From Rhodanobacteraceae bacterium (lineage in GTDB: Bacteria > Pseudomonadota > Gammaproteobacteria > Xanthomonadales > Rhodanobacteraceae), in contig JAEUPP010000013.1 of assembly GCA_016790075.1 (NCBI GenBank), positions 34,465 through 98,464 of the forward strand: DNA of 64,000 nt. The letters run 5' to 3'. Under the pieces are notes generated by a model, which worked only from the letters and a program-made list of their open reading frames with translations, searched no databases and was not told the DNA's origin. Positions within the stretch are counted from its first letter, which is position 1; each line of letters starts with the position of its first letter. Both the position numbers and the translations under genes were made by a program. Positions 22,009 to 33,714 of the stretch are shown piece by piece.

Positions 22009-22944
22009 ATGAGCTCGTTCCCGGCGCTGGATGTGCGCAATCTCACCAAGACCTATGCAAACGGCGTAAACGCACTCAAGGGCGTCTCGCTATGCGTCGA
22101 ACCCGGCGACTTCTTTGCACTGCTCGGCCCCAACGGGGCGGGCAAATCGACCTTGATCGGCATTCTTTCCTCGCTGGTGAATGCCAGCGGCGGTGAAGCC
22201 GACGTGTTTGGCCGGTCCATTCACGCCGATCGCGGCGGCGCCATGCAGCTGATCGGCCTGGTGCCGCAGGAAATCAACTTCAACCAGTTCGAGACGCCGT
22301 TCGACATCTGCGTGAACCAGGCCGGTTTCTATGGCATTCCGCGCCGGATCGCCTGCGAACGCGCCGAGAAGTATCTGAATCAGCTCAGTCTCTGGGAAAA
22401 GAAAGGCGTCGCCTCGCGTACCCTGTCGGGCGGCATGAAGCGGCGCCTGATGATTGCGCGCGCCATGATGAACGAGCCGCGGTTGCTGATCCTGGACGAA
22501 CCCACCGCCGGCGTTGACATCGAAATCCGCCGCTCGATGTGGAAGTTCGTCAGCGAGATCAACCGTGCCGGCACTACCGTCATCCTGACCACGCATTATC
22601 TTGAGGAAGCCGAGCAGCTGTGCCGCAACATCGCCATCATCGACAAGGGCAGCATCATCGAAAACACGTCGATGAAACGCCTGCTGGCCAAGCTTGATGT
22701 GGAGACTTTCGTGCTCGATGTGGTCGCCGTGCCCGAGGCACTGCCCACGGTCGACGGCGTGCGCCTGACGCCGGTCGATGCGCATACGCTGGAAGCGGAG
22801 ATGTCGCGCACGCACGATCTGAACTCGCTGTTCGCCGCACTCAGCGCCAACGGCATCGTCGTGACCTCGATGCGCAACAAGGCCAATCGCCTCGAAGAAC
22901 TGTTCGTACGCCTTGTCGAAAACAATCAGGGCAAGGCCGCCTGA
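22009..22944 (+). CDS. ABC transporter ATP-binding protein (YadG-like)
   Basis: 311 residues with Walker A GPNGAGKST, Q-loop VPQEINFNQF, signature LSGGMKRRLMIARAMM and Walker B LLILDEPTAGVD. The closest pattern I recognise is YadG of E. coli, paired with the ABC-2 permease YadH that follows here. The substrate of YadGH is not established. The ATG at 22009 gives the normal family N-terminus. The stop is 43 bases before the permease. Confidence 0.92.
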   Translation: MSSFPALDVRNLTKTYANGVNALKGVSLCVEPGDFFALLGPNGAGKSTLIGILSSLVNASGGEADVFGRSIHADRGGAMQLIGLVPQEINFNQFETPFDICVNQAGFYGIPRRIACERAEKYLNQLSLWEKKGVASRTLSGGMKRRLMIARAMMNEPRLLILDEPTAGVDIEIRRSMWKFVSEINRAGTTVILTTHYLEEAEQLCRNIAIIDKGSIIENTSMKRLLAKLDVETFVLDVVAVPEALPTVDGVRLTPVDAHTLEAEMSRTHDLNSLFAALSANGIVVTSMRNKANRLEELFVRLVENNQGKAA

Positions 22945-22987
22945 GGCGACCGCCAGCTCACTCACCCCTTCGGTCAAACCACTGCGC

Positions 22988-23764
22988 ATGCAAACCCAAG
23001 CCAACTTCGTCGCCCTGGGAACCATTGTCCGCCGAGAGATCGCGCGCATCCTGCGCATCTGGGGCCAGACCCTGCTGCCGCCTGCGATCACCATGACGCT
23101 GTACTTCTTCATCTTCGGCAATATGATCGGCGCGCGCATTGGCGAGATGCAGCCCGGCATCAGCTATATCGATTTCATCGTGCCGGGGCTCATCATGATG
23201 AGCGTGATCCAGAACGCCTACGGCAATATTTCCAGCTCGTTCTTTGGTTCCAAGTTCGGCCGCTACGTCGAGGAAATGCTTGTCTCACCCATGCCAAGCT
23301 GGGTGATCCTGAGCGGCTATGTACTCGGTGCGGTCGTGCGCGGACTACTGGTCGGCGCCATCGTGCTGGGTGTTGCGATGTTCTTCACGCATATCCGTCT
23401 ACATCATGTGTTCGTCACTCTGACGACCTTTCTGCTGACCGCGGTCGTGTTCGCGCTGGCCGGCTTTGTCAACGCCGTCTACGCGAAGAAGTTCGACGAC
23501 ATCGCGATCGTGCCGACCTTCATACTGACCCCGCTGACCTACCTCGGCGGCGTGTTCTACCCGCTCGCAAGCCTCGGCGAACCCTGGCACACGATCTCGC
23601 TGGCCAACCCTATCGTCTATATGGTCAATGCGTTCCGCTACGGCTTGCTGGGTGTCAGCGACGTCAACCTCGTAGCCGCTTATGCGGTAATGCTTGCTGC
23701 AGCGGCGATTCTGGCCGTGTTCGGCTTGTACTTGCTCAAACGCGGTGTCGGCATGCGGGCCTGA
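22988..23764 (+). CDS. ABC-2 type permease (YadH-like)
   Basis: 258 residues with about six hydrophobic segments and the ABC-2 signature region (YEEMLVSPMPSW-like EEMLVSPMPSWVILSGY; PLTYLGGVFYPLASL). It forms an exporter with the upstream ATPase. An in-frame codon lies 75 bases upstream but overlaps the ATPase gene; the ATG at 22988 gives a normal N-terminus (MQTQANFVALGTIVRREI). Confidence 0.92.
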   Translation: MQTQANFVALGTIVRREIARILRIWGQTLLPPAITMTLYFFIFGNMIGARIGEMQPGISYIDFIVPGLIMMSVIQNAYGNISSSFFGSKFGRYVEEMLVSPMPSWVILSGYVLGAVVRGLLVGAIVLGVAMFFTHIRLHHVFVTLTTFLLTAVVFALAGFVNAVYAKKFDDIAIVPTFILTPLTYLGGVFYPLASLGEPWHTISLANPIVYMVNAFRYGLLGVSDVNLVAAYAVMLAAAAILAVFGLYLLKRGVGMRA

Positions 23765-23846
23765 ACACCCGGCGTCTGGCCCTTGGCGACGCTTGATATA
23801 AGATGCCGGGTCGGCAAGGTAGCCGTGGTGGGGGGATATTGTGGTC

Positions 23847-24878
23847 ATGGTCAATCCAGGTGCATCGCTGGCGGGGATACCCGGTGCGGGCGGTTCGTTC
23901 GCCCGCAGCCGCCCGCCTTTCCTGCCGCGTCAACTATCGGAAGAGGAACTGGCGCTGTTCATCAGCGCCGGGCAGCGCCGCGAGGTCGTGCCGCGCGAGA
24001 TGATCTTCCGCAAAGGCGAACTGGGTCGCACCATGTTCGTGATCGAGTCCGGCACTATCCAGCTGGAATTCGGCGACGGCATGCCCGACAAACTGATCGG
24101 TGCCCGGGAGTTTTTCGGCGAACTTGCCCTATTCATCGGCAACCACGCGCGTGTAGCCAATGCCATTGCCGCGGAAACCAGCGTGCTGCGCGTGATTGAA
24201 CACCCGGAATTTGAAACACTGCTGCAGACCCAGGCCCCGCTGCTCGCGCAATTCATGCGGCGCTCGTTCTCCTATCTGGTCGCGAGCGAACAGCAGCTTA
24301 TCCAGAACCTGAAGCGGCGCAATGAAGATCTGCTGGTTACTCTGGATTCGTTGCGCCAGACGCAGACGCAGTTGTCGACTGCCGAACGCCTGGTGCGCAC
24401 CGACGAGCTGACCGGCCTGTGCAACCGACGCGGGCTTTATCATTTCCTTGAAGAGTTGCGGGCTAACCGCGACCCCTCGCGGCGTCTTGGCTTGCTGCTG
24501 ATCGACATCGATCACTTCAAGCAGATCAACGATCACTACGGCCACCTGAGCGGCGACATCGCGCTGCGCGCGGTCGCACGCGAAGTGCAGCAGGCGGCGC
24601 TGACCTGCGACCTGCCCTGCCGCTTGGGCGGCGACGAATTCGCGCTACTGGTTCAGGTGCGCGACCCCGAAGAATTGCGTGACCGTGCCGCGCAGGTCAC
24701 CAGCGGCGTGCGTGCGCTGCGCTTCCACGCTCCGGCCGAGGGCTTGCTGGTCAGCGTCAGTATCGGCGGCAGCCTATGCCACGAAACGGCCGAATGGTCG
24801 GCCTGGTACAGCGATTCGGACTGTGCGCTCTACCTGGTCAAGGGCGAGGGCGGCGACAACTATCGCGTTATCGCCTGA
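23847..24878 (+). CDS. diguanylate cyclase-like protein with N-terminal cyclic-nucleotide-binding fold
   Basis: 343 residues. Residues about 40-150 form a cNMP-binding beta roll (IFRKGELGRTMFVIESGTIQ, then GAREFFGELALF). A short coiled linker leads to a GGDEF domain with the intact active-site loop RLGGDEFALL and metal-binding IDIDHFK. The autoinhibitory I-site, normally RxxD six residues before GGDEF, reads LTCD, so product inhibition is probably lost. The ATG at 23847 is used; a GTG at 23841 is only four bases after a GGGGGGA run. The Crp-type arginine of the phosphate cassette is not evident, so the ligand may not be cAMP. Confidence 0.88.
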   Translation: MVNPGASLAGIPGAGGSFARSRPPFLPRQLSEEELALFISAGQRREVVPREMIFRKGELGRTMFVIESGTIQLEFGDGMPDKLIGAREFFGELALFIGNHARVANAIAAETSVLRVIEHPEFETLLQTQAPLLAQFMRRSFSYLVASEQQLIQNLKRRNEDLLVTLDSLRQTQTQLSTAERLVRTDELTGLCNRRGLYHFLEELRANRDPSRRLGLLLIDIDHFKQINDHYGHLSGDIALRAVAREVQQAALTCDLPCRLGGDEFALLVQVRDPEELRDRAAQVTSGVRALRFHAPAEGLLVSVSIGGSLCHETAEWSAWYSDSDCALYLVKGEGGDNYRVIA

Positions 24879-25094: not shown

Positions 25095-27758
25095 ATGAAT
25101 GCCTTGGTGTCGCCTACGGAATCGCAACCGTCACCACGTCAGAGCACGCCCTTGCTGCGCACGCTCGCGCTGTGCGACCTCGTCGACTCCACCAGTCTCG
25201 TCGAGCGGCTGGGCGACCAGCCGGCGGCCCAGCTGCTGCGCCGCCACGATCGCATGGCGCGCGACCTCATGCTGGCCCACGAAGGCCAGGAGATCGACAA
25301 GACCGATGGTTTCCTGGTCCTGTTCGAGCGCCCGATCCAGGCCATCGCCTTCGCCCTGGCCTATCAACGGGAACTGCAGCATCTGGGTGCGGACGAAAAG
25401 GTCGAGCTGAAAGCACGCATCGGCATTCATGTCGGCGATGTGCTGGTCTGGCAGAACGAACCCGGCGATGTAATCCACGGCGCCAAGCCGCTGGAAGTTG
25501 AAGGTCTGGTCAAACCCGTGACCGCACGGCTCGCCTCGCTGGCCTTGCCGGGACAAGTCCTCGTATCCGGCGTGGCCGCCAGTCTCGCGCAACGTGCCCA
25601 CGCCGAACTCGGCGCCAAGGCTGACCGCACGCGCTGGATCAACCATGGCCGCTATCGTTTCAAGGGCGTGCCCGAACCTCAGGTCGTCTACGAAGTCGGC
25701 GAGGTCGGCTTTGCGCCACTGCGCCAGCCGCCGTATTCGGGCAAGGCCTGGCGCGAGGTACCCTGGTGGCGCCGTCCCGGCACCATGTTTATCGAAGCCG
25801 GAATTGCCGCAGCCGCTATCGTGCTGGGCATCTGGCTGATACTGCGGCCACCGGCCGCCATTGCCTTCGCCGAACGTGACTGGGTGGTACTGGGCGACCT
25901 GCAGAACCTGACCGGCCAGGCCAATCTCGACGACACCCTGCGCACGGCGCTGCGCCTAAGTGTCGAGCAATCGCGTTATGTCAACGTGGTATCCGATCTG
26001 CAGGTCCGCGATTCCGTGCGGCGCATGCGCCGCGACCCCGCCAATACGCGTATCGATCGCGCCATCGGCGCTGAAGTCGCCTTGCGCGAAGGCGCACGCG
26101 CCCTCGTACTGCCCAGCATCGCCGAAGTCGGCGGCAAGCTGCGCGTGACCGCCGAGGTCATCGATCCGGGCAGCCAGACCACGGTCTACACCGATTCGGC
26201 GGAAGGCAGCGGTATCGAGTCGGTGCTGACCTCGCTGGACCGGATCAATGCGCAGCTGCGCGCGCGACTTGGTGAATCACTGGCTCAGGTCAAGACGACC
26301 AGCCAGCCGCTGGCGAAGGTGACGACTGACAACCTTGAAGCGCTGCGAGCGTATTCGCTGGCGCGCAAGGCGGCTACCGAGGGCAACGGCGATACGGCTC
26401 TGGATCTATACGAGCAGGCGATCCGGCTCGATCCGGAGTTTGGGCTTGCTTATCTGAGTCGCGCTGGGTTGCGCCTGGGGGCCGATGACAAACGGCGCGC
26501 CAAGGAAGATATCGAGCGCGCAAAGGCATTGCGCGAACGCCTTCCCGCACGCGAACAGCTCTATATGGATGCCCTCGCAGCCAGCTTCGCCAAACCTTCC
26601 GATATCCAGAAGAAATGGGCGCTATTGGGCGAAATGTATCCCGACCATTATGCAGCATTCGCAAATCTTGCGCATTTTATATACGTGTACGACGGGCGAT
26701 ACGCTGAAGCCATCCGCGTCGCGGAGAAGGCAATCGCCCCGAACTACCCGCGCAGCGGCAATACACACTATTTGCTCGGCCAGCTGTATACGGCGAGCGA
26801 AATGCCGCAAAAGGCGAAGCTCCATTTGCAACGCGCCAAGGAATTGAACTCACAAAGGCAAGGCACTTTCATTGTCGATGCGGCAGCGAGCATGCGCCGC
26901 TTTGCCGAAGCAGATGCTGAAATGGCCGCCGCAAAGCCTCTTGGCGTACCGAGCAACGACGTGCTACAGCATCGCTTGCGAGTCGCACTAGCTGTTGACA
27001 AGGGGCTATGGCGCGACGCGCTGGCACGCGCAGATGAAGCAGAGACTGCAGCGGCAGCGGTGGGACCACTCCCGACTCGTCTGTTTCAAGGCACCAAGCT
27101 TTCGCTGCAGGCCATCGCAACGCCGGGCACCGAATTCGCGCGTCAGATCAATGCCTACGCACGCAACGAAATCTCTGCACTGAGCGACTCGCAGAACTAC
27201 GACCGCGACCAGTCACTCTTCGGAGTCTTTTTCGCAGCATATCTCGCGGCACGCAACGGCGACGAAGAACTCGCGAAGTCCGTAGCTGCTCCTGTAGTCG
27301 ATCATGCCGACATCAAACACTACCGCTATGTTGCTGATATGGCGGCACTGGCCCAAGCGCAGCTCTCAATCACTAAAGGTGATGCCAAAGCGGCACTGAT
27401 ACTGCTATCGGCTCGGATTGATGGGGCGGAACTCTATCTGCTGCACAGTGGACTGCGCGACGCGCACACTCTAGCTGGCAATCTAGACGATGCTGCGCGC
27501 GAGGCGCAGTGGCTGGCGCAGCATCGTGGTCGCGCCTATGCCGAATACAACGCTACACAGATTCTTAAGGCACTCAATGTTGCGGAATCGAACCTCGCCG
27601 TACTCAGCGAAGCGGAGATCGCGCTACTGCAGAAAAAGACAACCATATCTGCAAGCAAACTAGCCGATTTTCTCCGCCTATGGCCTGAAGCAGAATTACC
27701 GGCGCCCCTGAAGCGCCGCGTGGACGCAGTCCGCAAGGACGCCGGCGATCATTCTTAG
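25095..27758 (+). CDS. putative peptide modification system cyclase (class III cyclase domain, TM, TPR)
   Basis: 887 residues from an ATG eight bases after GGAG. Residues about 20-200 form a class III adenylate/guanylate cyclase homology domain (LALCDLVDSTSL; KTDGFLVLF; RIGIHVGDV). One membrane helix follows (about 232-250), placing the rest in the periplasm. Residues about 258-390 resemble the TolB-like FlgO-type domain of such proteins, and TPR-like helices fill the remainder. Metal-ligand Asp residues (D28, D71) are kept. The catalytic Asn position reads Pro (LVKPVTARL), with Arg145 kept. The architecture and the neighbours match the family I know as 'putative peptide modification system cyclase'. 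The stop overlaps the convergent peptide gene by four bases. Confidence 0.82.
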   Translation: MNALVSPTESQPSPRQSTPLLRTLALCDLVDSTSLVERLGDQPAAQLLRRHDRMARDLMLAHEGQEIDKTDGFLVLFERPIQAIAFALAYQRELQHLGADEKVELKARIGIHVGDVLVWQNEPGDVIHGAKPLEVEGLVKPVTARLASLALPGQVLVSGVAASLAQRAHAELGAKADRTRWINHGRYRFKGVPEPQVVYEVGEVGFAPLRQPPYSGKAWREVPWWRRPGTMFIEAGIAAAAIVLGIWLILRPPAAIAFAERDWVVLGDLQNLTGQANLDDTLRTALRLSVEQSRYVNVVSDLQVRDSVRRMRRDPANTRIDRAIGAEVALREGARALVLPSIAEVGGKLRVTAEVIDPGSQTTVYTDSAEGSGIESVLTSLDRINAQLRARLGESLAQVKTTSQPLAKVTTDNLEALRAYSLARKAATEGNGDTALDLYEQAIRLDPEFGLAYLSRAGLRLGADDKRRAKEDIERAKALRERLPAREQLYMDALAASFAKPSDIQKKWALLGEMYPDHYAAFANLAHFIYVYDGRYAEAIRVAEKAIAPNYPRSGNTHYLLGQLYTASEMPQKAKLHLQRAKELNSQRQGTFIVDAAASMRRFAEADAEMAAAKPLGVPSNDVLQHRLRVALAVDKGLWRDALARADEAETAAAAVGPLPTRLFQGTKLSLQAIATPGTEFARQINAYARNEISALSDSQNYDRDQSLFGVFFAAYLAARNGDEELAKSVAAPVVDHADIKHYRYVADMAALAQAQLSITKGDAKAALILLSARIDGAELYLLHSGLRDAHTLAGNLDDAAREAQWLAQHRGRAYAEYNATQILKALNVAESNLAVLSEAEIALLQKKTTISASKLADFLRLWPEAELPAPLKRRVDAVRKDAGDHS

Positions 27759-28009
27759 TCTGCTCTGAGGTCGTGAATGACCGCATCCAGAGTACCGCCA
27801 AGCTGCTTCTGTATTACGGCACGCGAAGTCTTCAACGTCTGAGGATCCGCTAACTGCTTGCACTGCGCAAAGCATTTCGCCAGTTCCACCGGTGCGCCGA
27901 TCTGCTTGAGTGCCGCCTCCGGATCTTTAAGTAACAACGCACGGAATTCGTCGTCGGAACTCAGTTTGTCGAGTAGCGTATCCACCTGCGCAGACGTAAG
28001 ACTAGCCAT
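27755..28009 (-). CDS. putative modified peptide (NHLP-type leader), copy 1
   Basis: 84 residues. The N-terminal half (SAQVDTLLDKLSSDDEFR, then ALLLKDPEAALKQIGAP) has the FRxxLLxDPxxAL pattern of nitrile-hydratase-like leader peptides used by RiPP systems. The second half carries CFAQC (C46, C50), a GG at 71-72 and the conserved tail IHDLR. No signal peptide or membrane helix is present. The ATG at 28007-28009 follows AGGGGG; a GTG directly before it is less well placed. About 59 of 84 positions match copy 2. It has its own sigma-70-like promoter. Confidence 0.8.
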   Translation of the reverse strand: MASLTSAQVDTLLDKLSSDDEFRALLLKDPEAALKQIGAPVELAKCFAQCKQLADPQTLKTSRAVIQKQLGGTLDAVIHDLRAD

Positions 28010-28047
28010 CACAATTCCCCCTAGTTGCCACCACCCGTGGCCGGACG

Positions 28048-28076
28048 AGTGTAACGAGCAAGCAGCAGGCCAACAA
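28048..28076 (-). promoter_or_regulatory. sigma-70-like promoter of modified-peptide copy 1
   Basis: On the minus strand, TTGTTG (28071-28076), a 17-base spacer and TACACT (28048-28053), about 38 bases before the start codon. The same arrangement stands before copy 2. Confidence 0.62.
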
Positions 28077-28191
28077 TTAGTTCACGCGGGCAACACACCG
28101 CTACAGTAGGTACCGAAAAGCTACGCGGTCGCCGCGGAATATAGCCACGAATACCAAGCAACCGCGCGGAATCAGCGCGAATTTATCGACC

Positions 28192-28536
28192 TCAGCTCAC
28201 GCGAAGGTCATGAATGTTTGCACTTAGTGTCGCACCTATCTGCTGCCGAATCGCCGCACGCGACGCTTTCAGCGTCTCCGCATCAGCCAATTGCTTGCAC
28301 TTCCCAAAGCACTTCACCAGCTCGATAGGCGCGCCTATCTGCCCGAGCGCAGCGGCCGGATCGCTGAGCAACAGCGCTCGAAACGCGTCATCGCTGCTCA
28401 GCTTATCTAGCAGCATATCCACCTGCGCCGAAGCAAGGCGTACCGTCGCGGGGGCGGCCGTCGCTGACCGGAATTCGTCAGTCGAGCCCGCCTTGTCGAG
28501 CACTGTATCCAGCTGCCCAGCAGTGAAACTATCCAT
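28192..28536 (-). CDS. putative modified peptide (NHLP-type leader), copy 2 with duplicated leader helix
   Basis: 114 residues. Residues 31-114 align end to end with copy 1 and share FRALLLSDPAAALGQIGAP, CFGKC (C76, C80) and the IHDLR tail. The extra N-terminus (4-23, FTAGQLDTVLDKAGSTDEFR) repeats the first leader helix found again at 35-53, so an internal duplication is visible. The ATG at 28534-28536 is used because AAGGA lies six bases upstream; another ATG two codons earlier abuts that ribosome site. The GG of copy 1 is GA here. Confidence 0.78.
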   Translation of the reverse strand: MDSFTAGQLDTVLDKAGSTDEFRSATAAPATVRLASAQVDMLLDKLSSDDAFRALLLSDPAAALGQIGAPIELVKCFGKCKQLADAETLKASRAAIRQQIGATLSANIHDLRVS

Positions 28537-28574
28537 TGCCATTCCTTATCGTTGCCGCCAATTGCGGCCGGGCG

Positions 28575-28603
28575 AGTTTAGTGGGCAGGTTGCTGGTCAA
28601 CAA
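28575..28603 (-). promoter_or_regulatory. sigma-70-like promoter of modified-peptide copy 2
   Basis: On the minus strand, TTGTTG (28598-28603), a 17-base spacer and TAAACT (28575-28580). Downstream bases up to the start codon resemble those of copy 1 (shared CTCGNCCGGCC core), showing that promoter and gene were duplicated together. Confidence 0.6.
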
Positions 28604-28754
28604 CGGGTTCCGGCTGCAGGCACCGGCCAGTCCTTGCGACATAGGCTCGTGTGCTTGTCGCAACGGCATTCAGCCGCTAGTGTCGCGCCGGCTGTTGGCG
28701 GCCACTGTCGAATGTGGCAACCCGTATCTTGGTATCACATTCCCGGAGTTCCGC

Positions 28755-29951
28755 ATGCGTGTGCGCCGCTGCGCCCATCTGATGTTTGAACCACGCGAGG
28801 CGCTGCAGTTTGATCTCGATTCTCTGGTCGGCGGAGGTGACGGACTGCGCACGGAACTTAGCCTGCTGGCCCTGGTGCCGCATAACCGGCAGGAGATCGC
28901 TGTGTCCGTGGCGGAGGCCGCCCTGCTTGCCCGCGTGCCCTGCACTACGTGGACCGATCTGGAAACACTTGCGGCCACGCATGACCCGGACGGGATCCAC
29001 TCGCTGATCGCACGCGGACTGCTGATTGCCGACGATGCTGACCACGCCGCGGACCGTGCCCGCGACGATCGGGTACGGGAAGCCAACTGGCATACGCTGT
29101 CGGCAGTGCAACACTATTTCGGCTGCTGGGACGGGGTGCGCTCCGGCGACGAGACGCGCAGAGCCGGTTACGTCACCTTGCAGGATCTGATTGCCAAACT
29201 CGGTGAACCGCCGCCGCCGGCACAAGAGCACAGCAGCGCTGCCGCACGTCTGCCGCTGCCGCCGCCGCAAACCAGCGATTTCGACGACCTGCTCAGGCGC
29301 CGCGCAACCTGCCGCAATTTCGATACCACGACAGCATTGGCCCAGACAGAGCTTGCGACCATGCTGCACCGCGTGTTTGGCGCCCAGGGCACGCTACAGA
29401 TCAACGGCGGTGGTGACACTACCGTGATCAAGCGCAACAGCCCCTCCGGCGGCGGCCTGCATCCAACCGGTGCGTATGTGATCGCACGGCATGTGCAAGG
29501 CCTGGCCTGTGGGCTGTATCACTACCGGCCACTTGAGCACGCGCTGGAACCCATGCGCGGGCTGGCGCAGGACGAGGCCGACGATCTCGCGCTGCGCAGC
29601 GTGGCGGCGCAAGCCTATTTCGCCGCCGCACCGGTGCTGGTCGTGCTCGCGGTGCGTTTTCCACGCAATTTCTGGAAATACCGCAATCACGCCAAGGCCT
29701 ACCGCGTGACCACGCTCGACGTGGGCCATCTGTCGCAGACCCTGTACCTGTCGGCGACTGACCTGGGTCTGGGCGCCTTTATCACTGCCGCCATCAACGA
29801 GATCGAGATCGAGCAGGCATTTGGACTCGACGCTCTGGTCGAAAGTGCGATTGCGGTATGCGGCTTCGGCCACCGGGCCGCACAACGTGAGACGCCGGAG
29901 TTCGATCCGCGCGGCCTGGTCTGGCGTACCGATGGGACACGCACGCGCTAG
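28755..29951 (+). CDS. putative peptide maturation dehydrogenase (SagB-related nitroreductase fold)
   Basis: 398 residues. Residues about 176-390 form a SagB-type FMN dehydrogenase/nitroreductase domain: DFDDLLRRRATCRNFD at the start, NSPSGGGLHPTGAYVIARHV in the FMN region and GLYHYRPLEHALEPM. SagB enzymes oxidise thiazolines or oxazolines in modified peptides. The N-terminal 170 residues are of unknown fold with a Pro-rich linker near 151-171. The ATG at 28755 has GGAG six bases upstream. The longer frame would run into the promoter of copy 2. Together with the cyclase and leader peptides it defines the RiPP-like cassette. No YcaO/SagD or SagC partner is visible. Confidence 0.83.
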   Translation: MRVRRCAHLMFEPREALQFDLDSLVGGGDGLRTELSLLALVPHNRQEIAVSVAEAALLARVPCTTWTDLETLAATHDPDGIHSLIARGLLIADDADHAADRARDDRVREANWHTLSAVQHYFGCWDGVRSGDETRRAGYVTLQDLIAKLGEPPPPAQEHSSAAARLPLPPPQTSDFDDLLRRRATCRNFDTTTALAQTELATMLHRVFGAQGTLQINGGGDTTVIKRNSPSGGGLHPTGAYVIARHVQGLACGLYHYRPLEHALEPMRGLAQDEADDLALRSVAAQAYFAAAPVLVVLAVRFPRNFWKYRNHAKAYRVTTLDVGHLSQTLYLSATDLGLGAFITAAINEIEIEQAFGLDALVESAIAVCGFGHRAAQRETPEFDPRGLVWRTDGTRTR

Positions 29952-30859
29952 CGCCGCACAAACCGCGGCTGCCTGCCGGCAAGCAGCGGTGCCGCTCGGC
30001 TCAGCTCCTGATCCAGGGCGTGGAACACGGCCTTGATGCGCGCGCTGTTGCGCAGGTCCGGATGCATGAGGACCCAGACATCATTGGTGCATTCTTCGAT
30101 AGGGCCCGTGACGCGCCGCAGCGCCGGCTGCCGGTCACCGATGAAACAAGGCAGCACCGCCAGCCCTGCGCCAGCAGAACACGCATGCGCCAGGCCGATG
30201 AATGAATTCGTGCGGTAGGCCACTTCGTCCAGCGGCTTGAACCTGGCCAGCCAACGCAACGACACCGTGTGCGGCATGGAGTCGTCCACGGCGATCCACT
30301 CATGCGCAGCCAGGTCTTTGCCCGGCCGGCGCTGCAGATACCGCGCAGCGCCGTAGACCGCCATGGCGAGATTGCCTATTTTTTTCCCTATCAGGTGCTC
30401 CGGCGGCGACTTTGTCGGCCGCACGGCGATGTCCGCATCGCGCTTGGACAGGTCGTAGAAATCGTTTGATACAACGACCTGCAACAGAATGCCTGGGTGC
30501 AGGCTGCGACAGCTCTGGGCCATGGGCGCAATCAGGCCATTGGCGAAGCTGTCGGTGGTCGTGACCCGCACATGCCCGGTAGGACGCAAGTCCTGTCCCG
30601 CCACTTTCAGCAGCGACTCGGTCGCCTGGCGTTCGATCTCCGCACCGGCCTGGGCCAGCTCCTCGCCGGCGAGCGTAGGCACGTAGCGACCGGCGCTGCG
30701 CTCGAACAGCTTCACGCCGAGGCGGGCTTCAAACGCCTCGAGGCGTCGGAACGCCGTCGCATGACTCACGCCAAGACGCTGCGCCGCACCCGTCAACGCA
30801 CCTGTCGCTGCAATGGCAGCAACAAACTGCAGGTCTCTCAAGTCGTCTCCGGTTTGCAT
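29948..30859 (-). CDS. LysR family transcriptional regulator
   Basis: 303 residues with an N-terminal winged helix-turn-helix (GALTGAAQRLGVSHATAFRRLEAFEARLGVKLF, seen in two blocks) and a LysR substrate-binding domain (GHVRVTTTDSFANGLIAPM; DADIAVRP). It is divergent from the metallo-beta-lactamase-fold gene at 30950, its probable target. A perfect inverted repeat covers its own start codon (30853-30868). Its stop overlaps the end of the dehydrogenase gene by four bases tail to tail. Confidence 0.92.
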   Translation of the reverse strand: MQTGDDLRDLQFVAAIAATGALTGAAQRLGVSHATAFRRLEAFEARLGVKLFERSAGRYVPTLAGEELAQAGAEIERQATESLLKVAGQDLRPTGHVRVTTTDSFANGLIAPMAQSCRSLHPGILLQVVVSNDFYDLSKRDADIAVRPTKSPPEHLIGKKIGNLAMAVYGAARYLQRRPGKDLAAHEWIAVDDSMPHTVSLRWLARFKPLDEVAYRTNSFIGLAHACSAGAGLAVLPCFIGDRQPALRRVTGPIEECTNDVWVLMHPDLRNSARIKAVFHALDQELSRAAPLLAGRQPRFVRR

Positions 30860-30868
30860 CTATGCAAA
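30853..30868. promoter_or_regulatory. inverted repeat over the LysR start codon, candidate autoregulatory operator
   Basis: TTTGCAT, a two-base spacer and ATGCAAA form a perfect 7-bp inverted repeat. It sits in the divergent LysR/MBL control region. Repression of its own gene is inference. Confidence 0.4.
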
Positions 30869-30949
30869 TACCGATTTCAGATTTGTCATATTGAATTTCA
30901 TTTTCGCAAATCCAATACTCGGGTCAATACCCATCTGAGGGGCTTTCCC

Positions 30950-31918
30950 ATGCGCACATTCCTGCACATCACCGCCTCACTGCTGCTCTCGGCAACGGCT
31001 TACGCAGCCGAACCGATCTGGGACGGCAACAAGGTCAACATGATCAGCGAGAAGCTGGCTACGGACGTCTATGCCTTTTATGCGGACAACGCCCGCGAGC
31101 TGAACGCCAGCGGCGGGGCGGCCGCGACCAGCAGCGGACTGATCGTCGGCTCGCGCGGCGCCTTACTCGTCGATACCATGCTGAACAAGCGCCTCAACGC
31201 GCAGGTCCAGGCGCTGACACGCAAGGCAACCAAGCTGCCGCTGCTCTACGCGGTCAACACCAGCGCACATGGCGATCATTCCTACGGCAACATGTATCTG
31301 CCAGCGCAGACGCGCGTGATCCAGCACGCACACACGCAGAATTTCATCGCGACCAGCCTGGATGCCGACAAGGCATTCATGCTCAAGAACTTTGGCGACG
31401 GCCGCGGCATCGAGGAAATTCACGCCCATCCGGCCGATCTCATCGTTCCCGCCGGCGGCAAGATCGTTGTCGATCTGGGCGGCAAGCAGGTTGAAATCAT
31501 TGATTTCGGCTTTGCCCAGACCGGCGGCGATCTGTTCGTCTGGGAACCCGCGTCCCGGGTGATGTGGGCCGGCAACCCCGTCATCGCCAAGAAACCCGCA
31601 CTGCCCTGGCTGCTGGACGGCCACCTGGTTGAAACATTGGAAACAATGAGAAAAGTATATGATTTTCTGCCCAGCGACGCGCGCATCGTGCCGGGGCATG
31701 GTGTGGCGTTGTCGCGTGAAGACCTGAAATGGCACATCAACTACCTGGCGACGATCGAGCAGAACGTGCGTGCTGCAATCACCGAGGGGCTCAGCCAGGA
31801 GGAAACGGTCAGGCGCGTGACGATGCCGGACTACCGCGGCTATGTACTATTCGACTGGGTGCACAACAGCCTGAACGTTCCCGCAGCTTACAAGGACCTG
31901 ACCACGCCGAAGCAGTAA
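30950..31918 (+). CDS. secreted metallo-beta-lactamase-fold protein with altered metal site
   Basis: 322 residues with a signal peptide (FLHITASLLLSATAYA). The MBL fold is clear (GLIVGSRGALLVDTML; NTSAHGDHSYGN; IVPGHG). Aligning to the HxHxDH/H/D/H pattern, the first His is S105, the third His (normally GHT) is Q190 in FAQTGGD and the bridging Asp is N209 in WAGNP. H107, D109, H110 and H250 remain. The Zn1 site therefore looks lost. Hydrolase activity is doubtful or uses one metal. Alternatives include a binding or scavenging role. Confidence 0.82.
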   Translation: MRTFLHITASLLLSATAYAAEPIWDGNKVNMISEKLATDVYAFYADNARELNASGGAAATSSGLIVGSRGALLVDTMLNKRLNAQVQALTRKATKLPLLYAVNTSAHGDHSYGNMYLPAQTRVIQHAHTQNFIATSLDADKAFMLKNFGDGRGIEEIHAHPADLIVPAGGKIVVDLGGKQVEIIDFGFAQTGGDLFVWEPASRVMWAGNPVIAKKPALPWLLDGHLVETLETMRKVYDFLPSDARIVPGHGVALSREDLKWHINYLATIEQNVRAAITEGLSQEETVRRVTMPDYRGYVLFDWVHNSLNVPAAYKDLTTPKQ

Positions 31919-31993: not shown

Positions 31994-33013
31994 TCAGGAA
32001 CCGCCGGAGCCCGCCGTGATGCGCACATCGACACGCAGGCCAATGGGCAAGGGCGGCGTGCCGTCAAGTTCAATCAGCGCTTCGAGTATCTTGGCATCCT
32101 GCTTTTCGGCGGGATCGCCGGAGATCGAATTGCGGCGCCCCATGCGCTGGCTCACCCGCACCACCTTGCCGGCGAACTGCTGTTGCGGAAACGCATCGCT
32201 GACGATGGTCGCAGCCTGGCCCTCGCGGATGCGGCCGATATCGAGCTCGTCGATATCGGCGCGCACATAGCGCCGCGACAGATTGCCGATACGCGCCAGC
32301 GGCAGCGGCGACAATGCCACGACCGTTTCGCCCTCGCTGAGATCACGCTTGAGCACCGTACCGTCAATAGGCGAATGAATCAGTGTCTTCTCCACCAGCG
32401 CCTGGGCGCGGTCGCGATCGGCGCGCGCGGCGGCCACTGCGGCCGTCGCGGCAGCAATATCCTCCGCGCGCGCGCCCGCCTGCAGCAGCGCGAGTTCCGC
32501 ATCCGCCCGCAGGCGCCGCGCTGTCGCCGCCTCTGCCTGGGCCCGCGCCTGTTGCGCGGTCTCTGCTGCTATCAGTTTGTTGTGCAGGAGATTGTCGCGG
32601 CGGTCGCGCTCAGCCAGGGCTTGCCGTTCCAGCGCGACAGCTTCACCGCGCGCGGCCTCGGCCGCGGCCAGCTCCTCGCGCCGCGCGCCATTTTCCAGTC
32701 GCGCCAGTTCGGCTTCGCGGCGTTGCAATTCCGCTTCGGCCGCCGCAAGCGCCGCACGGTACTCGCTGTTCTCGATTTCGGCGATAAGCTGGCCGGCACG
32801 TATCGCGTCCCCTTCGGCGATCAGCACCTTGGACAGGCGTCCTGACAACTGCGGAATGATCACGCGCTCCTCGCCAACTGGCTCGACCAGGCCACCGGCA
32901 GCAATCAAGTGCAAGGTGCCGCCGCCAGTTGCAGCCGACGGTGCCTCGCGGCCGCAAGCGGCCAGCAGCAGCACATTTACAGCGACCAAGACAATCCACA
33001 AAACACGAGTCAT
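31994..33013 (-). CDS. HlyD/DevB-like periplasmic adaptor lipoprotein of an ABC exporter
   Basis: 339 residues with lipobox LLLAACGR near residue 20. It has a split biotinyl-lipoyl-like domain (GRLSKVLIAEGDAIRAGQLIAEIE and SPIDGTVLKRDLSEGETV) and a long Ala/Glu/Arg-rich coiled-coil hairpin in between (about 85-190). It links the inner-membrane ABC transporter to an outer-membrane channel. The start overlaps the ATPase stop by four bases, so it is last in the operon. Confidence 0.9.
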   Translation of the reverse strand: MTRVLWIVLVAVNVLLLAACGREAPSAATGGGTLHLIAAGGLVEPVGEERVIIPQLSGRLSKVLIAEGDAIRAGQLIAEIENSEYRAALAAAEAELQRREAELARLENGARREELAAAEAARGEAVALERQALAERDRRDNLLHNKLIAAETAQQARAQAEAATARRLRADAELALLQAGARAEDIAAATAAVAAARADRDRAQALVEKTLIHSPIDGTVLKRDLSEGETVVALSPLPLARIGNLSRRYVRADIDELDIGRIREGQAATIVSDAFPQQQFAGKVVRVSQRMGRRNSISGDPAEKQDAKILEALIELDGTPPLPIGLRVDVRITAGSGGS

Positions 33014-33714
33014 ACGGAACTCCGCTGCGGCCGCCGGTCACCCACCAGACGGCCATCTTCCAGATGCAGGACACGATCACCAAACGGTTCGACGCGCGGA
33101 TCATGGCTGACCACGACAACCGCCACGCCTTCATCACGCGCCAGGCCATGCAGCGTCGCTGCGACGCTCTGGCCGGTCTTGCCGTCAAGCGCTGCCGTCG
33201 GTTCGTCGGCCAGCAGAATGCGTGGCTTGCCAGCGAGCGCGCGCGCGATGGCGACGCGCTGTTTCTGTCCGCCGGAGAGCTCGCTGGGATAGTGCTCGGC
33301 GCGATCGCCCAGGCCCAGGCGCTCAAGCAGGGCCAGCGCCAACTGACGCTGTGAGCTGCGCGGCACGGCCTTGATGTCGAGTGCTATCGCGACGTTCTCC
33401 CAGGCCTTTAGGGTCGGAAACAGGTTGTAGTGCTGGAACACGAAGCCCACGTGCGCAAGCCGCAGTGCTGCCATGGCTTCCACCGCCAGCCCGCTCGCCA
33501 GGGGATTGCCGAACAAGTGCACACGGCCACGGGTCGGGCGCAGCAGGCAACCCATGATCTGCAGCAGGCTGGTCTTGCCTGAACCGCTGGGGCCGAGCAG
33601 CAAGGTCATCTCCCCCGCCTCGATCTCAAGACTGATGTCCTGCAGCGCGGTAAACGCGGTCGCGCCCTGACCGTACACCACGCCTATCTGTTCGAGCGCA
33701 AGCACGGCGCTCAC
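33010..33714 (-). CDS. ABC transporter ATP-binding protein (DevA/MacB/LolD type)
   Basis: 234 residues: Walker A GPSGSGKT, signature LSGGQKQRVAIARAL, Walker B ILLADEPTAALD and H-loop VVSHDPR. The class serves mechanotransmission exporters with FtsX-type permeases rather than importers. It overlaps both neighbours by four bases. Confidence 0.93.
   Translation of the reverse strand: MSAVLALEQIGVVYGQGATAFTALQDISLEIEAGEMTLLLGPSGSGKTSLLQIMGCLLRPTRGRVHLFGNPLASGLAVEAMAALRLAHVGFVFQHYNLFPTLKAWENVAIALDIKAVPRSSQRQLALALLERLGLGDRAEHYPSELSGGQKQRVAIARALAGKPRILLADEPTAALDGKTGQSVAATLHGLARDEGVAVVVVSHDPRVEPFGDRVLHLEDGRLVGDRRPQRSSV

Follow-up and report, generated by a model that had tools for sequence, protein, structure and literature searches.

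A mosaic locus of Xanthomonadales that may couple a modified ribosomal peptide to a receptor guanylate cyclase

In a 64,000-nucleotide stretch of a Rhodanobacteraceae genome (contig JAEUPP010000013.1 of GCA_016790075.1; hereafter the window) we analysed a locus encoding a membrane class III nucleotidyl cyclase, two short NHLP-type peptides, a SagB-related flavin mononucleotide (FMN) dehydrogenase and, beside them, a GGDEF protein with a cyclic nucleotide (cNMP)-binding domain. Sequence comparison identifies this locus as a mosaic, in which the GGDEF protein and the catalytic domain of the cyclase are constant and the cyclase sensor, the peptide and the dehydrogenase change as a block. The cassette is inherited with the sensing half of the receptor and varies on a near-unchanged core, a pattern that points to the peptide as the so far missing signal of this receptor. 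On balance we lean towards a locus that works like a peptide-pheromone system wired to a receptor guanylate cyclase, in which the modified peptide would be the cognate signal, feeding cyclic di-GMP (c-di-GMP). The basis is homology, linkage, predicted topology and the finding that alleles of sensor, peptide and dehydrogenase are exchanged together; from these we infer the modification of the peptide, its export, its binding to the sensor and the sign of its effect.

The exchange can be followed between loci that we presume to be from Xanthomonas (genus g58, a label inferred from identity to the PDB entry 5h5o). Loci L220 and L242 are 100% identical in the GGDEF protein and the catalytic domain, and have only 29 and 19% identity in the TPR parts, 29% in the peptide and 33% in the dehydrogenase. 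Their flanks align by blastn (matches with E<=1e-10 and at least 80 bp retained) at 99.0% over 4,837 bp and 97.2% over 6,987 bp, and the 3.5 kb between them is unmatched; for the same-type pair L222/L223 the alignment is unbroken (96.5% over 15.7 kb). Among six pairs compared in this way the block aligned through in two same-type pairs and not in four of different type, apart from a 195-bp match in the dehydrogenase of L198/L218 and a flank match that runs into the dehydrogenase in L196/L222. The 28 loci of g58 fall into six types with between-type identities of 92% (GGDEF), 93% (catalytic domain), 36% (sensor), 34% (peptide) and 41% (dehydrogenase), against 95, 95, 82, 80 and 77% within types. 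Because types were set by sensor identity (65%), the sensor contrast arises by construction, and those of core, peptide and dehydrogenase do not. Sensor identities of 60-70% occur in no locus pair. Dehydrogenases can be as little as 39% identical within a type and as much as 62% between types, and those of L258 and L266 are fragments. Typing omitted the cyclase pieces L280 and L281 of genome G442 (G442:C1, 128421-132190), where cyclase matches lie in separate pieces and the gene looks broken. The switch from constant to variable sequence falls at a median of residue 233, in the membrane helix, over 252 between-type pairs that are mutually non-independent (132 at 220-239; 5-95% range 202-362).

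Over 91 complete units the distances form two blocs, one of catalytic domain and GGDEF protein (r 0.85) and one of sensor with dehydrogenase (0.82) and with peptide (0.65). With GGDEF distance held constant, the correlations are 0.77 for sensor-dehydrogenase, 0.56 for sensor-peptide and 0.57 for peptide-dehydrogenase, and for the catalytic domain 0.08 with sensor or dehydrogenase and 0.22 with peptide (0 of 300 permutations, a test that takes no account of phylogeny). The nearest relative lies in the same genus for the catalytic domain and the GGDEF protein in 78 of 81 units each, and for sensor, peptide and dehydrogenase in 65, 60 and 63. In L242 all three variable parts are nearest L229, from another genus, and in L196 all are nearest L200, with the core nearest its own genus in both cases. 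Tandem copies within one genome (L092) share 97% of the catalytic domain vs 44-45% of sensor and peptide. Behind the resident cassettes of L224 (10240-12357) and L249 (10651-12588) we identified a sensor-only cyclase gene, cut just before the membrane helix and most closely related (50-51%) to the resident cyclases of L208 and L254; these are perhaps displaced older receptors.

The constant core belongs to a pathway of known function. In X. campestris, XC_0250 is a guanylate cyclase, and binding of its cyclic GMP (cGMP) to XC_0249 increases the synthesis of c-di-GMP (PMC3770947). From its sequence the TIGR04510 family, named putative peptide modification system cyclase, includes XC_0250, because the cyclase of L198 (presumed Xanthomonas) carries D41, D71, L73, A150, L157 and A161 at the published positions (6/6), has 886 residues counted from Met, which is the published length, and adjoins an XC_0249-like protein. 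The best PDB match of the N-terminal domain of the window GGDEF protein is 5h5o, taken as XC_0249 from seven residues (the entry of PMC3770947 itself is 4KG1). Identity to 5h5o was 88.6-95.9% in four of 30 compared loci and at most 73.1% in the rest, and in each of these four presumed Xanthomonas loci a TIGR04510 cyclase (1096-1206 bits) adjoins the GGDEF gene. Adjacent cyclase and cNMP-GGDEF genes occur in the window and in most fetched loci. A signalling role of the cyclase, which the initial annotation had considered, is supported by the family (PMC3770947). The statement in that annotation that no chemistry is proven holds for the peptide, per the literature searched, and fails for the cyclase, whose ortholog has demonstrated guanylate cyclase activity and a demonstrated cGMP effector next to it.

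The N-side of the predicted helix is more positive in all 123 cyclases with a predicted helix, and the sensor is predicted to lie on the periplasmic side in each. Sensor residues about 430-880 form a helical solenoid in the predicted structure, mostly with a predicted local distance difference test score (pLDDT) of 80-97. The N-terminal part of the sensor has no Pfam match; we take it to be FlgO-like. The TPR region was termed uncharacterised in PMC3770947 and was still so described in 2019, in a passage of a review (PMC8042644). The words peptide, dehydrogenase, nitroreductase, periplasm and XC_0251 are absent from the text of PMC3770947, figures and supplements lying outside this scope (Figure 1A gives the genomic context).

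Cyclase, peptides and dehydrogenase lie where the initial annotation placed them (Table 1), and its assignment of the trio stands, with every member above its curated NCBIfam cut-off (TIGR04510, 400 bits; TIGR04509, 34; TIGR04511, 240). The dehydrogenase also matches the SagB family TIGR03605 (125.4 bits vs a cut-off of 78.4). The annotation had treated these genes as a single block; it did not record that the peptides are encoded on the minus strand, and it missed the GGDEF partner and the allelic exchange. Our sequence set comprises 127 cyclases, 120 dehydrogenases, 103 GGDEF proteins and 160 peptide open reading frames (ORFs; 156 distinct peptides) from 121 loci, with L135 added for alignments. 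These loci were picked for holding a cyclase or a peptide, so genome surveys give the fairer count of co-occurrence. For these counts a peptide was present at E<=0.001. In 197 genomes of the family, all 57 with a cyclase over its cut-off match the peptide (55 over the peptide cut-off; G034 and G127 below), and 14 control genomes have no peptide match, so the association is not due to chance. Over 299 genomes of the order Xanthomonadales, the cyclase exceeds its cut-off in 82, of which 81 match the peptide (one, G034, below the peptide cut-off). The dehydrogenase is over its cut-off in 52 of the 57 family genomes; the other five have fragments (G037, G120, G131) or contig ends beside the peptide gene (G079, G127). 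A search for relatives outside the order ended within it: among 321 genomes of the class, peptide matches occur in four, all of the same order and including the window genome. The GGDEF protein is not an inseparable part of the cassette, being beside the cyclase in four of 16 searched genomes, elsewhere in 11 and lacking in G275.

The commonest layout in the 121 loci is GGDEF> CYC> PEP< DH> (64 loci), with the dehydrogenase inverted in nine more. A peptide gene lies antisense at the cyclase 3' end for 123 of 127 cyclases, the median distance from one stop codon to the other being -4 bp. The four exceptions are two contig ends, L231 (peptides on the other side) and L228. L230 and L216 also depart from the layout, having between them three pairs of peptide genes on the same strand. 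The convergent 3' ends touch or overlap (gap <=0) in 66 of the 123, so antisense control of one gene by the other would be possible. L230 (G388) has a peptide-gene array on both strands, with nine TIGR04509 matches, several dehydrogenase-like frames, one full cyclase and a fragment of another.

The leader motifs described earlier as FRxxLLxDPxxAL are present in the two window peptides as FRALLLKDPEAAL and FRALLLSDPAAAL, and these peptides are the sole TIGR04509 matches in the window genome. Within three of the six Xanthomonas types, those assessed, conservation along the peptide is highest in the last 20 residues, yet these are unlike between types. We propose these 20 residues as a putative peptide core, extrapolating from Xanthomonas types to the genus of the window. 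The initial annotation had the dehydrogenase acting on a CxxxC region, a motif found in just 10 of 156 distinct peptides (C.C in 24, CC in 9, C..C in 5), and we rejected it as the modified motif. At least one Cys is present in 139 of the 156, so a single Cys may be the target.

In the dehydrogenase alignment W307 (118/118), K308 (117/118) and Y309 (118/118) are nearly invariant, and the fold matches ThcOx. The Lys-Tyr motif has a catalytic role in SagB/McbC/ThcOx-type oxidases. An N-terminal peptide-clamp domain, like a RiPP (ribosomally synthesised and post-translationally modified peptide) recognition element (RRE), is possible in the window enzyme; ThcOx carries two such clamps according to a passage of PMC5108345. 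The absence of an adjacent YcaO, noted initially, extends to the whole window assembly (95.65% complete, no match at E<=0.001; the same search matches in 5 of 14 control genomes), and azole chemistry via a distant YcaO was set aside for this genome, the one searched among cassette carriers. No dedicated exporter had been seen next to the cassette. In fact ABC-2 genes (22018-23761) lie upstream of it and HlyD/ABC genes (31994-33714) downstream, but these neighbours are genus-restricted and we rejected them as dedicated exporters. In other genomes of the window's genus, ABC-2 permease and HlyD matches lie beside the cassette in 5/7 each; outside it neither was found in the fetched loci, some of them cut by contig ends and with generic ATPase matches left aside.

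Table 1. Positions in the window of the genes and parts of the locus
Feature	Position	Strand	Evidence
cNMP-binding and GGDEF protein, XC_0249 family; constant core, proposed cGMP effector	23841..24878	+	Pfam cNMP_binding and GGDEF over cut-off
TIGR04510 membrane class III nucleotidyl cyclase, XC_0250 family	25095..27758	+	906.7 bits vs cut-off 400
Cyclase catalytic domain, residues 15-205; constant core	25137..25709	+	D28, D41, D71, A150 nearly invariant in aligned cyclases
Cyclase transmembrane helix, residues 232-250; coincides with median switch point of Xanthomonas alleles	25788..25844	+	hydropathy peak at 232; changepoint
Predicted periplasmic sensor, residues 255-887; variable, N-terminal part and TPR solenoid	25857..27755	+	TPR matches
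Peptide 1, 85 aa from GTG 28012 (ATG at 28009); stop overlaps cyclase stop	27755..28012	-	TIGR04509, 65.3 bits vs 34
Peptide 1, C-terminal 20 residues; proposed core	27758..27817	-	inferred from three Xanthomonas types
Peptide 2, 116 aa; leader partly duplicated at N-terminus	28192..28542	-	TIGR04509, 65.2 bits vs 34, match from residue 36
Peptide 2, C-terminal 20 residues; proposed core, IHDLR common to peptide 1	28195..28254	-	sequence; inference as for peptide 1
Intergenic region, divergent, peptide 2/dehydrogenase	28543..28754		gene layout
TIGR04511 SagB-related FMN dehydrogenase, Lys-Tyr motif; possible N-terminal RRE-like peptide-clamp domain	28755..29951	+	503.1 bits vs 240

In the window, the peptide 1 gene is convergent with the cyclase gene and the peptide 2 gene divergent from that of the dehydrogenase. 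The TIGR04511 match begins at residue 76 of the longest dehydrogenase ORF, so the ATG at 28755 is the likely start. In peptide 2 an extra partial leader copy, LDTVLDKAGSTDEFRSA (28453-28542, minus strand), precedes the full leader; inspection of the peptide list by eye showed no equivalent. The nearest named relatives of the window cyclase are from Tahibacter; in that genus, T. aquaticus DSM 21667 carries two cassettes. Between the dehydrogenase and the HlyD/ABC genes (29948-31918) lie genes for a LysR regulator and a metallo-beta-lactamase-fold protein, unmatched in the relative L123.

A signalling route in this locus could begin with an NHLP-type peptide made in the cytoplasm, which the SagB-like flavoenzyme would oxidise, probably in the C-terminal tail. 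The mature peptide would reach the periplasm, and there the TPR sensor of the cyclase would bind the peptide of its own cassette. Binding would alter cGMP synthesis, and cGMP would act on the neighbouring cNMP-GGDEF protein, with a change in c-di-GMP and thus in biofilm and lifestyle. The steps from cyclase through cGMP and the GGDEF protein to c-di-GMP were demonstrated in X. campestris (PMC3770947). More tentatively, the system could represent a new class of cell-cell signalling, in which a receptor guanylate cyclase of Xanthomonadales has as its pheromone a ribosomal peptide altered by oxidation, and cross-genus pherotypes, feeding cGMP and c-di-GMP, are exchanged as a unit of sensor half-gene, peptide and dehydrogenase.

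Several observations weigh against this pheromone reading. In genus g26, with tandem cyclases beside two dehydrogenases, peptide identity follows the sensor (0.91) and the catalytic domain (0.87) alike over 15 pairs. The three variable parts of L217 and of L124 point to different loci and no one donor; the nearest sensor is still from the same genus in 65 of the 81 units; and the contrast is less marked within the genus of the window (window vs L073: GGDEF 79, catalytic domain 77, TPR 36/29, peptide 58, dehydrogenase 57%). L228 (G409) keeps the GGDEF and cyclase genes, with no peptide in a whole-genome search and no dehydrogenase at the locus. More than one hydrophobic helix is predicted in 21 of 124 cyclases, and structural matches of the solenoid may reflect a common arrangement. 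A strongly hydrophobic stretch occurs in one of 160 peptides, no exporter is conserved beside the cassette, and a C39-type exporter was rejected as a required part (C39 protease domain in six of eight cassette genomes, none in G016 and G391). The XC_0250 cyclase domain by itself restored biofilm (PMC3770947), so a signal could act either way on the cyclase. At the XC_0250 sites the window cyclase keeps D41, D71, A150 and A161 (4/6; L73 to F, L157 to V), and at the cGMP site its GGDEF protein keeps F73, E90, L91, H98 and E146 (5/7; V142 to L, N145 to S; position 145 is S in 52 and N in 43 of 102 aligned proteins). Because of these substitutions, cGMP is the likely but not certain nucleotide of the window cyclase.

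Linkage is the further difficulty, and it bears on one of the alternatives. When dehydrogenase distance is also held constant, the peptide-sensor correlation drops to 0.23, vs 0.22 for peptide-catalytic domain, so the dehydrogenase shares in most of the peptide-sensor signal, the outcome expected if three adjacent parts recombined as one block. Such recombination explains part of the signal. That it explains everything, the contiguous parts being swapped as neighbours of a conserved catalytic domain with no functional peptide-sensor pairing, we consider improbable: G409 lacks peptide and dehydrogenase together, each tandem cyclase has its own peptide, and in genus g5 peptides follow sensors (0.96 over 21 pairs, vs 0.42 for the catalytic domain) despite a shared dehydrogenase, two cyclase-peptide pairs per one dehydrogenase being found in three of four tandem loci (the fourth is cut). 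Since g5 peptides follow sensors while g26 shows both alike, pairing is favoured, but these data do not separate it from linkage.

The modified peptide could instead be an internal regulator that serves its own cell as a partner or redox switch, with the sensor diversified by another pressure. Both a strongly hydrophobic, export-like stretch and a conserved C39 exporter are lacking, the conservation of leader and second helix resembles that of a small protein domain, and most peptides have Cys, all of which suit this explanation; the predicted periplasmic sensor in 123/123 cyclases and a tail that is most conserved within three types, yet differs between types, do not, and we regard it as unlikely. 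An antibacterial RiPP whose paired sensor recognises self or protects the producer (kin discrimination) is less likely again, with peptide tails that have no conserved core chemistry and a known output that is a biofilm pathway (PMC3770947), although the allelic variety and the sensor-only genes of L224 and L249 resemble toxin-immunity loci. As a separate candidate, a Pycsar defence system was rejected, since no PADLOC family matched the cyclase, the peptides or the dehydrogenase at E<=0.001; over the cNMP domain of the GGDEF protein there are weak matches to TIR effectors, of which one is named PycTIR. The initial reading, which has the dehydrogenase act on the CxxxC region in the manner of RiPP pathways that form azoles, has in its favour the Lys-Tyr motif and fold common to McbC and ThcOx; given the rarity of CxxxC and the lack of a YcaO match in the window genome, we find it very improbable.

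If the pheromone reading is true, cognate peptide-receptor pairs and several pherotypes within one genus would be expected, and a SagB-type enzyme would have a use without a cyclodehydratase. Among the matches listed in open-licence literature none connects either the peptide family or the dehydrogenase family with the cGMP pathway, and no product of the TIGR04509 trio is reported in the literature searched. The NCBIfam names TIGR04509, TIGR04510 and TIGR04511 give neither product nor function; the GGDEF partner, the predicted topology and the allelic exchange are added here. With SagB, McbC and ThcOx azoline oxidases the window dehydrogenase has the nitroreductase fold and Lys-Tyr motif in common. 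Of the features of azol(in)e RiPPs (TOMM/LAP), the Lys-Tyr FMN dehydrogenase is present here, and the YcaO cyclodehydratase and a conserved peptide CxxxC are not.

The agr locus is a polymorphic peptide quorum-sensing locus with the same pattern of variable peptide and receptor. Like comQXP, as passages of PMC4008528 describe it, our locus combines a variable peptide C-terminus and receptor sensor region with a conserved cytoplasmic signalling domain, and has a modifying enzyme within the locus. This pattern of variable sensor, peptide and enzyme on a constant core is strongest here outside the window's own genus. The locus is not a member of the comQXP/agr systems, because receptor, enzyme and messenger differ: in place of a receptor histidine kinase and response regulator there is a TIGR04510 nucleotidyl cyclase with a periplasmic TPR sensor and a cNMP-GGDEF partner, the enzyme is a flavin dehydrogenase, the output would be cGMP and c-di-GMP, and the host is Gram-negative. 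With the XC_0250/XC_0249 pathway it shares the same two adjacent genes, and the named residues stand at the same numbers in Xanthomonas orthologues. The cited account of that pathway names no input signal, and the literature searched gives no product for the TIGR04509 trio; the data join the two, so that each is a candidate answer to the other.

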